Both the position numbers and the translations under genes were made by a program. Below, one piece after another: positions 3 through 51,248 of a DNA stretch of 64,000 nucleotides. The notes below the pieces were generated by a model. The model was given only the letters and a program-made list of their open reading frames with translations, did no database searches and was not told the DNA's origin. The DNA comes from Crystallibacter degradans (GTDB taxonomy: Bacteria; Actinomycetota; Actinomycetes; Actinomycetales; Micrococcaceae): contig NZ_JABBCH010000004.1 of NCBI RefSeq assembly GCF_012952295.1, positions 1 to 64,000 on the forward strand, given 5' to 3'. Numbering within the stretch: position 1 is the first letter of the stretch; each line of letters starts with the position of its first letter.

Positions 3-1427
3 ACCAGCAGTAACGCGCTGAACTCTGCCAGTGCTGCCGGCAACGCCGAGGCCGCGACCAGCGCTGCGGGTACCGTTCTGGTTGCCGATGCCGGAGTGCG
101 GGGATTCGAGGAGCTGGATTATCGGTCGGCGGTGGAGCAGCTGGTAGCGGGCCGGCGGCTGGCGGCCTGGCTGGACGCGGGCCTGGTACGCCTGACCCAC
201 CGCATCGGCCAGACCGCCGTCGAAGAGCTCCCGCCGCCGGATCCGGGTACGCCGCCGGCCGGCCGGGCCGAGCTGGAGAATCTGGCCGAGCAGTCCGTGG
301 TCGAGGAACTGGCCTGCCTGTACCGGATCACCGAGCACCAGGCCCGCGGCCGGTACGAGAGGGCCCAGGAGCTGTGCGAACACTATCCGGGCACGCTGGC
401 CGCGCTCACCGCCGGGGACCTGGATCTGGAACGCGCGGGCGTGATCACCCGGCAGGGCGACACCCTGCCCGACGACGCGAAACCCGGCTTCGAGCAGGCG
501 CTGCTGGTGGAGGCGCCGGATAAAACCCCGGGCGAGCTGCGCTCCGCGGCGCGGAAACAGCGCGAGAAACTGAACCCGGAAACCATCACCGTCCGCCGCG
601 AACGCCAGGAACAGTGCCGCAACGTGTACCTGGAACCGGCGGATGACGGCATGGCGTTCCTGGGCGCGTACCTGCCGGCGGAGGAAGCGTACGCCGCGTA
701 CGACCGCCTCACCCAGTCCGCCCGGAGCCTGCAAACCAAGACCGAGACCCGCACGCTCGGGCAGCTGCGCGCCGATGTCTTTATCGAGCTGCTGCTGAAC
801 GCTGGCATGGAGGCCGGGCCGGCGGCCGGGATCCGGCCCGAAGTCGCGCTCACCGTGCCGGTGTTCACGCTGATGGGCCTGGACGAGGAACCGGCAACCC
901 TCGACGGGTACGGGCCGATCCCCGCCGACACCGCCCGCAAACTCTGCGAGGGCGCGGACTCGTTCTACCGGATCCTGACCCACCCCGAGACCGGGACCAT
1001 CCTCTCCTACGGCAAAACCGTGTACCGGCCGCCGGCGGATCTGGCCCGCGCGGTCCGCCACCGCGATACGACCTGCACCGCGCCGGGCTGTCATGTTCCG
1101 GCGAAGGACTGCGACCTGGACCACACCATCGATTACCATGCGAACGGCGGCCACGGCCGGACCGATTTCGGCAACCTCGGCCCGCGCTGCGGCTCGGACC
1201 ACCGGCTCAAATCCCTCGCCGGCTGGAAAGTCACCCAAACCAGACCCGGGGAATACACGACCACCACGCCCGGGAACCAGACCTACACCACGAAACCCGG
1301 TGACACCGGAGCCGGACCGCCATCCTTCACCGACCGGATCCTCGACGCGCTGCCCGACAACTTCCGCAACCGCCTCAAACCCAAAAAACCACCACCACCG
1401 GAACCCGAAAAAGAACCACCATTCTGA
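3..1427 (+). CDS. DUF222/HNH endonuclease family protein, 5' end outside window
   Basis: The reading frame is open from the first complete codon at position 3, so the gene probably starts upstream of the window; a GTG at 96 is the first internal start and would give 443 residues. The N-terminal two thirds have the helical, charged look of DUF222. The C-terminal part carries an HNH nuclease core: Cys pairs around residue 326 (numbered from 96), then DLDHTIDYHANGG and NLGPRCGSDHRLK, which supply the metal-binding His and Asn residues. The last 20 residues are a Pro/Lys/Glu-rich tail. Such proteins occur in many copies in Arthrobacter-type genomes; their biological role is not settled. Family call is confident, true start unknown. 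Confidence 0.85.
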   Translation, partial: TSSNALNSASAAGNAEAATSAAGTVLVADAGVRGFEELDYRSAVEQLVAGRRLAAWLDAGLVRLTHRIGQTAVEELPPPDPGTPPAGRAELENLAEQSVVEELACLYRITEHQARGRYERAQELCEHYPGTLAALTAGDLDLERAGVITRQGDTLPDDAKPGFEQALLVEAPDKTPGELRSAARKQREKLNPETITVRRERQEQCRNVYLEPADDGMAFLGAYLPAEEAYAAYDRLTQSARSLQTKTETRTLGQLRADVFIELLLNAGMEAGPAAGIRPEVALTVPVFTLMGLDEEPATLDGYGPIPADTARKLCEGADSFYRILTHPETGTILSYGKTVYRPPADLARAVRHRDTTCTAPGCHVPAKDCDLDHTIDYHANGGHGRTDFGNLGPRCGSDHRLKSLAGWKVTQTRPGEYTTTTPGNQTYTTKPGDTGAGPPSFTDRILDALPDNFRNRLKPKKPPPPEPEKEPPF

Positions 1428-1538
1428 CCGTTGGTGAAGCTCTGACCAGTGCTGAAGCGCGGGAGTTGGCGCGTGACAGAATCTGCCAGACGTTGTCCCG
1501 TGCGGGCTCCTCATCGAAGCCTTTGGAAATCTCGCCGG

Positions 1539-47410: not shown

Positions 47411-48843
47411 GCTGGCTCCTCCTGCTCGGGCTGGCGTTCTTGGATAACGATAGTGAAAGTGGAACCGTGTCCGGGTGCGCTGGCCAGTTCAACGCGCCCG
47501 CCGTGGGCATGGGCGATGGCGTTGACGATGGTCAATCCCAACCCGGATCCTTCGGCCCTGGTCCCGTTGGCGCCACGGGCGAAGCGTGCGAAGATCCGGC
47601 CCTGGTCTTCGGGGGCGATCCCGGCACCCTCGTCACGGATCCATAGGCGCAGTTCCCCGGGGACGGCCCGGGAGCCAACGGCAATGGTTGAACCTATTGG
47701 GGAAAACTTGACGGCATTCGCCGCCAGCTGCAGCCAGGCCTGGGTCATGCGTTTGGGATCGAGGCTCCACATGTGTTCGGCGCGGGAGTCGACAACCCAC
47801 CGCCGGTCGCCCAGTGTCCTGGCCTTGTCCAGCACATCATCCGTCAGTTGCCCGACCTCCAGTGGGCGGGGTTTGACGAATTCCGGACGTTCGGCGCCCG
47901 CGAGCGTAACAAGGTCGTCGACCAGCAGCCGCATGCGGTCCAGTTCGTCGAGCGCAATAGCGCGGACGGAGTCAACGTCTTCCGGATCGTACGAGTCCTG
48001 CAGTTCCAGGTGCCCCTGGACGATGGTGATCGGCGTTCGCAGCTCATGTCCGACGTCGTCGAGCAACTGGCGCTGGGCTGTCATCGAGCCCTGGAGCCGG
48101 TCCAGCATCTCGTTGAAGGTCTGGGAGAGTTCGGAGAGGTCATCGTTCCCGCTGACCGGGATGCGGCGGGACAGATCGGTTTCGGTGATCTTCTGTGCGG
48201 TTTCCCGCACCAGCCGGACCGGTGCCAGCAACCTCCCGGCCACCAGCCAACCTACGCCCGAAATGAGCACAAGCGCCGCCAGGCTGATCAACGTGTAGGT
48301 CCGGAAGTTGTCGCCGAGCTCCTCGAGTTCCGCATCGTAGTCGAAGGCCAGCAAAAAAATACTGTGGGTGGGGTCCGAGGACAGCTGGACAGGGACGGTC
48401 ACGGCGCGGTAAGTGGTCTGCCCGGTCTTGATGGAGGTGAGGATGATCCGCTCCGTCTCCGGCTGGGCCACGACCTTGTCGATGAGTTCGTGGTCGTTTT
48501 CCAACCGCAATTCGACCGAGTTGTTGGCGGTCAACGCAACCTGTCCGTCAACGATGCCAACCATGCCCTCGTTCTCTGCCGGTGCAGTGCGCGCCATGAC
48601 GGTGCGTACCAACTGGCTGCCGCGGGTGAATTCCTGTCCCGTTTCGGGGTCGATGCCGATGTCGGCCAGGGTGTCGAACTCTTCGACGGACCGCCTCAGC
48701 GAGTCATCGATGCGTTGATTGATCTGGCCGCGCTGGAGACCAAAGAGCACGCCGCCGGCTACCGCGAGGCCCAGGGCGGAAAGTGCGAGTACGGCCGCGA
48801 GGACACGGGTGCGGACGGACAGGCCGTCCAGGCGCCTAAACAT
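47407..48843 (-). CDS. Sensor histidine kinase
   Basis: 478 residues. Membrane segments at about 15-35 and 185-205 frame an extracellular sensor domain of 150 residues without a recognised fold. A HAMP domain follows (RLLAPVRLVRETAQKITETDLSRRI), then the HisKA H-box DDVGHELRTPITIVQGHLE near 270 and the HATPase N, G1 and G2 boxes (NAVKFSP, IRDEGAGIAPED, GSGLGLTIV). It lies 26 nt after the acidic-tailed protein, so both are probably on one transcript. The gene order kinase then regulator is the reverse of the usual one. Confidence 0.95.
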   Translation of the reverse strand: MFRRLDGLSVRTRVLAAVLALSALGLAVAGGVLFGLQRGQINQRIDDSLRRSVEEFDTLADIGIDPETGQEFTRGSQLVRTVMARTAPAENEGMVGIVDGQVALTANNSVELRLENDHELIDKVVAQPETERIILTSIKTGQTTYRAVTVPVQLSSDPTHSIFLLAFDYDAELEELGDNFRTYTLISLAALVLISGVGWLVAGRLLAPVRLVRETAQKITETDLSRRIPVSGNDDLSELSQTFNEMLDRLQGSMTAQRQLLDDVGHELRTPITIVQGHLELQDSYDPEDVDSVRAIALDELDRMRLLVDDLVTLAGAERPEFVKPRPLEVGQLTDDVLDKARTLGDRRWVVDSRAEHMWSLDPKRMTQAWLQLAANAVKFSPIGSTIAVGSRAVPGELRLWIRDEGAGIAPEDQGRIFARFARGANGTRAEGSGLGLTIVNAIAHAHGGRVELASAPGHGSTFTIVIQERQPEQEEPA

Positions 48844-48869: not shown

Positions 48870-49286
48870 TTAGTCGTCATCGGCATCGCCGTCGTCATCA
48901 TCGAAATCGTCGTCTCCGTCGTCGTAATCGATCGGTGGTGCGGGCGGTACCGGGACGGGGGCAGGAGCAGGTGGCGGAGCGGGAGCGGGCGGCGGCGCGG
49001 GGGCTGGTGCTGGGGCAGGCGCTGGTGCCGGGTCAGGGTCCGGCGGTGCTGCGGGCTTCGAAGGCCGACCGGCGTCCGGTTCTGCCGAAGCGTTGTCTGC
49101 GGAACCGGCATCCGGCGATTCAGCCGGCGCGCTGGACGCCGAAGGGGAGGGGGTGAACACTATCGACGGACCCAGATCGGAGGGGTCGGGGCTGCGGAGG
49201 GTACTCGCCACGGCATAACCTGCCAGCCCCATACCGAGGACGATGGCAACGGCCGTGAGCAGATAACGGATGGTCGCGCGCTGCAT
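48870..49286 (-). CDS. Small membrane-anchored protein with Pro/Ala repeat and acidic tail
   Basis: 138 residues. One membrane segment at 9-28 (LLTAVAIVLGMGLAGYAVAS) is followed by a Ser/Pro/Ala linker, a PAPAP repeat of about 40 residues, and a tail of almost pure Asp (DYDDGDDDFDDDDGDADDD). The outer part should be extended and strongly negative, and could bind Ca2+, Mg2+ or cationic molecules (inference). AATACT lies 6 nt before ATG 49286, which fits a leaderless start. It is the first gene of the acidic protein-kinase-regulator group. Not recognised as a known family. Confidence 0.6.
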   Translation of the reverse strand: MQRATIRYLLTAVAIVLGMGLAGYAVASTLRSPDPSDLGPSIVFTPSPSASSAPAESPDAGSADNASAEPDAGRPSKPAAPPDPDPAPAPAPAPAPAPPPAPAPPPAPAPVPVPPAPPIDYDDGDDDFDDDDGDADDD

Positions 49287-49329
49287 GCTTCAAGTATTCC
49301 GAGGCAAGATGAGACGAATATGAGAAGCG

Positions 49330-51105
49330 TCAGTCCTCGGCCGCCTCTTCCGCCGCGCGGCGTGCCTCCTCGGCTTCATCCTTGCGGCCGAGCGAATCCA
49401 GGGCCGATGACAGCCCCAGGTTGGCAGCCACACGCAGCATCCGGCTGATGTCGGGCTGGGCCAGCACCATCCGGAACATCGGCACCGCGTCCGCGGGACG
49501 GTCAAGCTCCGCCAGGACATGCGCGGCGAAAAGTTCGGAATTGCCGGCCGACGCCGCGTCGTCCGCTGCGGAGTAAAGGTCCGCGGCCTGCAGGGCAGCG
49601 GAGACCGCCGCCGGGCCGTGGTCGAGGGCCCAGAGCCCGCGGGCCCTGGTGTCGCTATAGTCCGCCTCGTACCAATGCGCCCCGTAGTCCCGCGCCAGCC
49701 GGATTGCCTCGTCCAGCTGGGCGATGCCGTCCTGGTCGCCGGCTTCGCACATCGCATGGCCGAGGGCATGGAGGGCCTGCGGCAGGGCCGCTGCGTCGTC
49801 GGAAGATTTGCGGGCGGCAGCAACGGCCGCCTCGAAGCAGACGATCGCGTCCGCGTCATGGTCTTCCCGCGACAACAAGGTGCCGATGGCCAGCAGCGAC
49901 CGTGCAGCCTCGCCGTACTCTCCGCCGCCGGTGAACTCCGCTACTGCCTCGCGCCAGCAGTCCAGGGTGTCGGCCGTGCGTTCGGCATGGCGGTGTGCAT
50001 GCCCCAGGCTCATCAGGGTGCGGGCCTTGTCCGAGTGCGGGGCCTCGATCAGCCGCTGGCGCTGCAGCAGCTTGCCCAGCACCTGGGCAGCGAGTTCATA
50101 CTCCTCCGCCTCCAGCAGTTGGTTGCCCAGCGCCAGACGCAGCGTCAGTTCCTCCTGGACTTCGCCGCGTTCGGCCTGCTGCACGGCCGCGCGCCACGCC
50201 AGTACCGAACTCTCCGCGTCGCCGGCGGCAGCACACAGCTGTGCCACGACGACCGCGGCGGAAATGGCGCCCTTCCGGACACCGCAGGCAGCGTAGAGCT
50301 CAAGGGCCGTCAGGGCATACTCGATGGCTTCGTCGTCGTGCTCCCCGGTGTTGACGAGGTTGGCTTTCAGCAGCCACATGGAGGCCGCCAGTGCACGGTT
50401 GGCCGGAATGGCGAGCAGCCGGTCTGCGGCGGCGACGGCTTGCCCGGGCTGGTCCAGCTGCAGATAGGTATGCGCCAGATACATCAGCGCCCCGGCGAGA
50501 CTGTCGGTGCGCTCGCCGGCGGCATAACCCTCAACCGCGTCCTCAAGCAGGGCGACCGCCGTTGACCGGACCCCTTTTTGCGAATGCGCGACGGCGATGG
50601 CCAGCTTGACGTCGGCCAGGACGCCGACGGGGGCCTTGGTTGCCTGAAGCTGCTCCAATGCCGCTTCCAGCACGGGCAGTTCCGCGGCGGTCGCTTCGCG
50701 GAAGAGGACCGTCCCAAGGTCAGCCTCGACGGATGCCTGGACTTTGCGTCCGGCACGGCGCAGCCGGTCTACCCGCTGCGCCAGGTAGTACTCCGCGTCC
50801 GAAGTCTGGTCTTGGATCTGGGCAACGGCTATCAGGACCGAATACAACGCCAGCACGGTGTCGGTGTCGGATTCGGTAGCCTGCTCAAGTCCCAGGCGTG
50901 CCAAGGTCACCGCGCCATAGTGGTCCTCCGCGTAGGCCGCTTCATAGGCACGGTCCAGACAGTCACGGGGATTCGCCGGTGTTGCGGCAGGGTCCGGCCC
51001 GGCGGCAGCGAGGACTTCCAGAAGCCGCCGCTCGATGGCGGGCATTGCCACGCTCCAATCCGGCGGGACGGGGTCCGCGCGATGCCTTGCTGGCCTGATC
51101 CCCAT
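49330..51105 (-). CDS. TPR-like helical repeat protein
   Basis: 591 residues made almost wholly of paired helices with tetratricopeptide character (LVNTGEHDDEAIEYALTALELYAACG, LGKLLQRQRLIEAPHSDKARTLMSLGHAHRH). No enzyme motif or membrane segment is seen. It is likely a scaffold or partner protein. ATG 51105 gives the start; the open frame continues upstream without a ribosome site. It ends 43 nt before the acidic-tailed gene on the same strand. Confidence 0.75.
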   Translation of the reverse strand: MGIRPARHRADPVPPDWSVAMPAIERRLLEVLAAAGPDPAATPANPRDCLDRAYEAAYAEDHYGAVTLARLGLEQATESDTDTVLALYSVLIAVAQIQDQTSDAEYYLAQRVDRLRRAGRKVQASVEADLGTVLFREATAAELPVLEAALEQLQATKAPVGVLADVKLAIAVAHSQKGVRSTAVALLEDAVEGYAAGERTDSLAGALMYLAHTYLQLDQPGQAVAAADRLLAIPANRALAASMWLLKANLVNTGEHDDEAIEYALTALELYAACGVRKGAISAAVVVAQLCAAAGDAESSVLAWRAAVQQAERGEVQEELTLRLALGNQLLEAEEYELAAQVLGKLLQRQRLIEAPHSDKARTLMSLGHAHRHAERTADTLDCWREAVAEFTGGGEYGEAARSLLAIGTLLSREDHDADAIVCFEAAVAAARKSSDDAAALPQALHALGHAMCEAGDQDGIAQLDEAIRLARDYGAHWYEADYSDTRARGLWALDHGPAAVSAALQAADLYSAADDAASAGNSELFAAHVLAELDRPADAVPMFRMVLAQPDISRMLRVAANLGLSSALDSLGRKDEAEEARRAAEEAAED

Positions 51106-51248
51106 GCATTCAGTTGTAGTCCCCGCTGGCCCCGGACGCAACGCTCGGGCCGCCAAAGTAACGTTTGCGAAAGTATGGCGAAGGGAACTATGCCAAATGC
51201 AGCCCGGCGCTTCTGCGGCGCAGTGGAAGCCCGCCTAGACTGAAAGGC

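Follow-up and report, generated by a model that had tools for sequence, protein, structure and literature searches.

According to two reports, MgrB is a 47-residue, single-pass membrane protein that belongs to the regulon of the same regulator whose kinase it modulates, and this kinase, PhoQ, responds to Mg2+ limitation and to cationic peptides (PMC8404706, PMC10576120). EMRE is reported to be a small regulatory subunit with a single membrane helix and a C-terminal polyaspartate tail of 5-7 Asp, which binds a polybasic stretch (PMC4892889). Two systems are described from Streptomyces. HbpS-SenS-SenR adds to its kinase and regulator a third protein that is extracytoplasmic (PMC4991794), HbpS, which is a secreted octamer (PMC3754957). 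CutRS is a two-component system directed at the outside of the cell (PMC12802291, PMC10433416), in which CutR binds TAWATAAA and the CutS sensor has two conserved cysteines (PMC12802291). Here, we analysed a window of 64,000 nucleotides from Crystallibacter degradans (contig NZ_JABBCH010000004.1, positions 1 to 64,000), in which a small gene stands before the genes of a histidine kinase and its response regulator. The three genes are hereafter referred to as the trio, and the product of the small gene as the Asp-tailed protein.

The PhoQ sensor has an acidic patch. To our knowledge, MgrB is not encoded beside its kinase and has neither a stalk nor a poly-Asp tail. Like MgrB, the Asp-tailed protein is a small membrane protein. 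It may also belong to the regulon of its own system, the promoter signature lying at the gene in all eight trio-bearing genomes of the host genus. Unlike MgrB, it has 138 residues, adjoins the kinase gene and carries both a stalk and a poly-Asp tail; the proposed likeness would be one of function. EMRE, a subunit of the animal mitochondrial Ca2+ uniporter channel, has the same design of helix and tail, a likeness of design only. A third, extracytoplasmic protein would be common to HbpS-SenS-SenR and to the system in the window, but HbpS is a secreted octamer whereas the Asp-tailed protein is an anchored chain. A first-pass annotation of the window knew of no described system with such a partner. 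A search of the open-access literature by titles and abstract openings found no Asp-tailed partner of an actinobacterial kinase. We place the system among the two-component systems that have an accessory membrane protein, which are known; what is new is a tail of poly-Asp, a near-private promoter beginning at the small gene, and a distribution that reaches across the phylum.

Results

The features of the locus are collected in Table 1. The first-pass annotation had described a membrane anchor, a PAP-repeat stalk and an Asp-rich tail in the product of the first gene of an operon, and all of these are present; the gene stands 26 nt ahead of the kinase, counted from its stop codon to the kinase ATG, and has a conserved promoter upstream. 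The ORFs of the kinase and the regulator overlap by 4 nt.

Table 1 Features of the trio and of its upstream region in the window.
Feature	Position	Strand	Basis
TPR-repeat protein gene	49330-51156	-	
Putative operator TCTCATATTCGTCTCAT, direct repeat with 11-bp period	49309-49325	-	Conservation across loci
-10-like element AATACT, 10 bp after the operator, ATG beginning 6 nt further	49293-49298	-	Position-specific conservation, 96 distinct sites
Asp-tailed membrane protein, 138 aa	48870-49286	-	ORF list and homologs beside the kinase; ATG 49286-49284, stop codon 48870-48872
Predicted membrane helix, residues 9-28	49203-49262	-	Hydropathy; AlphaFold2 helix 2-30
Conserved juxtamembrane motif P-x3-D-L-G-P-x-I-x-F-T, residues 33-45	49152-49190	-	Family alignment
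Low-complexity Pro/Ala/Ser stalk, residues 46-118	48933-49151	-	Sequence; no predicted secondary structure
Poly-Asp tail, residues 119-138, 14 D of 20	48873-48932	-	Sequence; family composition
HAMP histidine kinase, 478 aa	47407-48843	-	ORF and Pfam; ATG at 48843
Kinase extracellular sensor, residues ~35-185, predicted PDC/Cache-like, net charge ~-13	48289-48741	-	AlphaFold2 and fold comparison
OmpR-type response regulator, 222 aa	46742-47410	-	Pfam

The Asp-tailed protein can be described as a helix, a short motif, a stalk and a tail. AlphaFold2, with an alignment of 38 sequences, predicted a single confident helix, of residues 2-30, and no further secondary structure. The motif that directly follows the membrane helix is PDPSDLGPSIVFT in the window. 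Its residues P33, L38 and G39 are conserved in 92%, 97% and 95%, respectively, of the 75-76 family members aligned there, while the stalk, which is rich in PAP and PPP in the window, is variable, and the lengths of stalk and tail differ between homologs. The tail of the protein in the window, IDYDDGDDDFDDDDGDADDD, has 14 D among its 20 residues, and 14 D is also the median for the last 20 residues of 77 family members. The C-terminal residue is D in 75 of these 77, and the last D is at most one residue from the C-terminus in all of them. Their last 30 codons include 861 GAC and 481 GAT. Since the composition is held and both Asp codons are used, the tail is conserved at the level of the protein and is not a simple DNA repeat. 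Pfam gave no match in the small protein, and the NCBIfam matches to it were far under the cut-off and confined to the low-complexity part. In three loci (L005, L073 and L230), the helix and the Asp tail are in different frames, the frame being disrupted between them, which may be an assembly error or a variable repeat.

In the kinase, Pfam recognised HAMP, HisKA and HATPase_c only, and in the regulator Response_reg and Trans_reg_C; the isolated sensor domain had no Pfam match. Residues 1-255 of the kinase were modelled by AlphaFold2 with an alignment of 53 sequences and a mean pLDDT of 90.6. The modelled sensor opens with a long helix and a further helix, continues with five strands that have one helix in their midst, and closes with a long exit helix. 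Its fold was compared by Foldseek and by structural comparison with Z scores. The top-ranked matches were two integrative models, of WalK-YycH (Z 11.3) and of a chemoreceptor (Z 10.6). The best crystal matches were the WalK/YycG ectodomain (5is1, Z 9.6, 128 residues aligned in a chain of 142) and a Bacillus subtilis domain (4zr7, Z 9.4), and the next were KinD, CusS, CitA, DcuS and PhoQ, with Z from 8.5 to 6.8 (7.8 for CusS, 6.8 for PhoQ). Matches with Z below 8 (CusS, PhoQ) may reflect a common arrangement only. The sensor is predicted to be PDC/Cache-like, with a long helix, a central sheet and a C-terminal helix as in solved PDC sensors, although a profile search of solved structures (E 0.01) matched no sensor domain, its three matches covering only the part with the second membrane helix and HAMP. 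The first-pass annotation had this domain as one of no known fold, a description that the model does not support.

The median net charge of the sensor is -15.5 in kinases without the small gene (n=24) and -12 in kinases with it (n=77). Kinases without the gene are equally acidic, so the charge of the sensor cannot be taken to show that it is fitted to the tail. Identity with several named systems was considered and rejected. The heavy-metal sensor system scored 175.7 for the kinase against a cut-off of 292.55 (TIGR01386) and 215.2 for the regulator against 279.2 (TIGR01387). For MtrAB, the kinase scored 170 against 450 and the regulator 180.3 against 300; for CseBC, the CseB score was 177.7 against a curated cut-off of 350; and for an ortholog of PhoQ/PhoP, the regulator scored 130.7 against the PhoP cut-off of 336 (NF008078). 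CutRS was rejected because the operator here is TCTCAT-N5-TCTCAT and not TAWATAAA, and because cysteines are missing from the kinase ectodomain in 77 of 77 kinases.

A search with the small protein only mixed true neighbours with Pro/Ala-rich matches elsewhere, and the kinase was therefore taken as the anchor for the survey of relatives. Within the family, 111 matches were found at E 1.1e-28 or better, of which 110 were read (G051 was left out); of the weaker ones, some paralogs were examined. The gene is present in 82 of the 110 kinase loci and absent from 25, and three loci lie at a contig edge (L041, L066, L131). Among the 82, 77 were recognised by an automatic test for a helix and an acidic tail, a test without a chance control of its own; two start unusually (L103, L104), two are frame-disrupted (L005, L073) and in one some bases are masked (L047). 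The regulator is downstream of the kinase in 109 of 110 loci. All 25 gene-less loci belong to two genera, g20 (5 loci) and g12 (20 loci). In the host genus, a close ortholog of the kinase was found in eight of ten genomes; G004 and G006 have neither it nor the promoter.

The TPR gene upstream ends 43 nt before the Asp-tail gene, on the same strand. A relative of it adjoins the kinase in 29 of the 110 loci of the family; the loci searched in the order and the class have none there. In g20 and in part of g12, the kinase directly follows this relative, and the small gene thus appears to have been lost there. Transcription may read through from the TPR gene into the operon, despite the conserved promoter that lies between.

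The loci compared at the level of order and class are the better-scoring part of their searches, and their kinases are distant and not all necessarily orthologs. Repeats were left out (L205, L211 and L213 in the order; L272, L274, L286, L289 and L292 in the class; and L200 and L201, which repeat family loci). In the order, the gene was recognised automatically in 19 of 63 loci. The 44 that fail the test include three with a variant or frame-disrupted form (L202, L203, L230); the tails of L202 and L203 are EYDDGMYRPSD-like repeats that the test missed. Both gene and operator are missing from 37 of the 63. In the class, where 22 loci offered 900 nt or more of upstream sequence, the gene was recognised in 16, and one of the six that fail is masked (L293); two tails in family f38 (L269, L270) have about 40 Asp. 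At the range of the phylum, the sensor was found at E 1e-20 in 26 of 261 genomes. Where at least 900 nt were available upstream, a helix with an acidic tail precedes the kinase in 11 of 22 loci, and in 7 of the 15 outside the class, some tails being looser, with EPD or SPD repeats. Three genomes of family f37 have the gene in two cases and a weaker tail in one, and the operator within two mismatches in none. Named examples of the wider range are Arthrobacter sp. VKM Ac-2550, with a practically identical kinase, Cellulomonas pakistanensis, whose operator has two mismatches, and two metagenome-assembled genomes labelled Acidimicrobiia and Actinomycetota, the latter with a weaker tail.

The trio thus recurs in the order, the class and the phylum, but patchily. 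The first-pass annotation had counted on the gene staying with the kinase and the regulator in related genomes. This stands in so far as the association reaches far beyond the genus (82 of 110 family loci), but it falls short in the two genera whose 25 kinases lack the gene and in the loci of order (44 of 63) and class (6 of 22) that fail the test. As many kinases stand without the gene, we regard it as a widespread but dispensable partner.

The conserved promoter of the Asp-tail gene consists of TCTCAT-N5-TCTCAT, a spacing of 10 bp, a -10 box and the start codon. Operator counts leave out loci with less than 900 nt upstream (four in the family and two in the class). With at most one mismatch, the operator is present in 79 of the 81 gene-bearing family loci counted in this way, L078 and L095 being the exceptions, and the 25 gene-less ones are all without it; base-shuffled upstream regions have it in 0.05 of 191 on average. 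It is also present in 24 of 63 order loci and in 17 of 22 class loci. Among 96 distinct sites, from the family and from chosen order loci with the operator, A at +28 (90%), A at +30 (78%) and T at +32 (94%) are conserved, and the start codon is mostly at +39 or +40 relative to the operator. A strict -10 box at the fixed place accompanies the operator in 61 of 79 loci of the family, 12 of 24 of the order and 0 of 17 of the class, so that the exact layout is a trait of the family and its near relatives.

In promoters of the PhoB/OmpR kind, a direct-repeat operator replaces the -35 box. The layout of class II activated promoters for an OmpR-type regulator, an 11-bp repeat about 10 bp before the -10 box, is found here at the level of the family. 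The promoter looks like that of a regulator-activated, leaderless operon with its transcription start at or next to the ATG, and from linkage we infer that the operator is bound by the trio's own regulator. Since the promoter looks regulator-activated, the circuit would itself produce the small protein, which may at the same time be one of its inputs. In four order loci of family f3 (L212, L214, L215, L216), the same promoter immediately precedes the start of the kinase, and the small gene is missing from this place. A different arrangement, the inverted half-site pair ATGAGA-N4-TCTCAT, lies at most 400 nt from the kinase in 7 of the 25 gene-less family loci, in 0 of the 81 gene-bearing ones and in no shuffled region. 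These inverted pairs, in the g12 loci L077, L084, L088, L092, L105, L111 and L127, read ATGAGAAAACTCTCAT, one of them with AAAG.

Operator and -10 box together, with up to two mismatches, were found at the gene in 8 of 8 trio-bearing genomes of the genus and in 0 of the 2 without the trio, and the reversed control gave 0. The sole extra site in the genus is one in G009, with two mismatches. As the signature is near-unique to the gene within the genus, the trio gives the impression of a closed circuit under its own control, of which the Asp-tailed protein would be the only recognisable product besides the kinase and the regulator. The exact bare operator occurs once in the genome of the window. 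Allowing up to two mismatches gives 53 sites, compared with 35 for the reversed control, and further weak targets may therefore exist in this genome. In 63 of 80 other genomes with the gene or a variant of it at the kinase locus, the exact operator occurs somewhere, while the reversed control gave a total of 2 sites in these 80.

In genus g31, the operator lies about 100-150 nt before the gene for UDP-glucose dehydrogenase (ugd) in 8 of the 8 closest orthologs (L346-L353). The array there consists of four half-sites in 11-bp steps, the last two degenerate, and is followed by TA(C/G)(C/G)GT at the same phase. In a survey of 49 ugd loci, with one match per genome and second copies left out, the operator with at most one mismatch was present in 10 of 15 loci of g31 and in 0 of 34 elsewhere. 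The ugd of the window's own genome (L360) has no operator upstream and was rejected as a target there; the operators of G078 were rejected as drivers of ugd as well, both sites pointing away from it. In one genome, G053, an operator array (L145, about 1475-1560) stands before genes for a DUF4956 and a VTC-domain protein. UDP-glucose dehydrogenase is the source of glucuronic acid, and VTC is a family of polyphosphate polymerases. The case for ugd and VTC as lineage-specific, polyanion-making targets of the operator is suggestive but thin.

Paralogous systems were found with the operator and without the Asp tail. In g9 (L141, genome G017), the gene of a related regulator (754-1464) is followed by the exact operator and a small exported protein (about 1570-1900), which begins with MKKWSLL, has LEPGVIVTEVAP after the hydrophobic start and lacks an Asp tail. 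In g23 (L158 and L159, about 1500-1780), a tiny exported ORF of about 60 residues, also without an Asp tail, lies between the operator and a paralogous kinase. As these paralogs keep the operator and a small exported protein without the tail, helix and motif would form the core of the small protein. We read this arrangement as a core of helix and motif that would meet the kinase, to which the tail would add a charge-dependent property.

Discussion

Taking together the computed gene order, tail, motif, promoter with its near-uniqueness in the genus and model of the sensor fold, we propose, with a probability of about 45%, that the Asp-tailed membrane protein is induced by the regulator and is a third component of the module, modulating the kinase and tuned by cations or cationic peptides. 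The kinase, with its predicted PDC/Cache-like sensor, would phosphorylate its OmpR-type partner. This regulator would bind TCTCAT-N5-TCTCAT and activate the leaderless promoter, and the operon would yield the Asp-tailed protein first and then the kinase and the regulator. The Asp-tailed protein would reside in the membrane, with stalk and tail outside. The helix and the DLGP motif, next to the kinase, would adjust it, most likely as negative feedback, and the tail would load divalent cations or cationic peptides; the set-point would then follow the charge of the tail. As tail and sensor are both acidic, a direct contact between them would need a cation bridge, and the loss of cations or the arrival of a cationic peptide would therefore change this contact.

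The main rival explanation, which is possible though rather unlikely in our judgement, makes the Asp-tailed protein an output: a polyanion anchored at the cell surface, where it would retain cations or sequester cationic peptides, while the kinase senses envelope or cation stress alone and the regulator has more of the polyanion made. In the genus, the promoter signature has no clear site other than this operon, all 77 family members compared retain the composition of the tail, and the operators at ugd in g31 and at VTC in G053 would give this idea a common theme, all three products being, or making, polyanions. The window's own ugd is without an operator, however, the VTC case comes from a single genome, and the paralogous systems keep the operator with a small exported protein that has no Asp tail. 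In the version put forward by the first-pass annotation, the tail would capture a cation or a cationic peptide and hand it to the kinase as an activator. Such a co-receptor would suit the conserved neighbourhood, the single-pass anchor and the long stalk, and it has a precedent in EMRE, a small subunit that, as reported, holds a Ca2+ sensor by its polyaspartate tail (PMC4892889). We hold it to be improbable all the same, given that the sensor is itself acidic (net -13), unlike the polybasic surface bound by the tail of EMRE, that kinases without the gene are common, and that control by the regulator suits feedback better than a constant co-receptor.

Two other explanations were weighed. A tail that is merely of low complexity, serving export or solubility and having no part in signalling, would agree with the varying length of stalk and tail and with the lack of predicted structure in them; we give this little credence, as the last D is at most one residue from the C-terminus in 77 of 77 proteins with two codons in use, and as acidic tails recur at the range of the phylum. 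The tail could also act in cis as a sensor of translation, in which the Asp run would destabilise the translating ribosome at low Mg2+ and tune the translation of the kinase gene that overlaps or adjoins it, the protein itself mattering little. The first gene does close with the Asp run, which follows a stalk of small residues, and in some genera the end of this gene overlaps the predicted kinase start by 8-26 nt. Runs of D and E can abort translation, but the abstract of the report puts the stress on runs near the N-terminus (PMC9718836). In many loci, moreover, the kinase starts 60-290 nt beyond the small gene, and conservation of the membrane helix and of the DLGP motif is left unexplained, which makes this the least probable of the explanations weighed.

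If the proposed regulator-induced modulator is real, a third and so far unnamed gene belongs to a signalling module in several classes of a large phylum, and the module would be a candidate actinobacterial system for the sensing or buffering of cations or cationic peptides at the surface, as well as a natural case of a poly-Asp tail in bacterial signalling. A direct test is made easy by the gene order, the operator and the tail: one small gene, one promoter and one tail. A broader form of the proposal, which we consider doubtful as a whole, would see here a widespread three-component system of Actinomycetota in which a self-induced poly-Asp protein acts as a lid, tunable by cations or peptides, on a PhoQ-like kinase. 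In some lineages the operator would also have recruited the makers of surface polyanions, uronic acid and polyphosphate, and the system would be a Gram-positive counterpart, built from different parts, of the control of surface charge by PhoPQ-MgrB.

A few minor observations concern other operator sites. No recurring gene was found at the other exact operators examined in other genomes (among them L142, L144, L146, L161-L163, L167, L318, L320, L322 and L323, and further L328, L332, L337, L339 and L345). In G001, G003 and G007 (L168, L150 and L153, respectively; about 1501-2254), a second exact operator lies about 60 bp before the gene of a 226-residue membrane protein that has no Pfam match. 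In the window's genome, an operator with one mismatch (L171, G000:C1:349906) lies near an ORF (1036-1431, minus strand) for a small, secreted-looking protein that begins with MNKRNIW, and a protein with a similar start precedes the kinase in L235.
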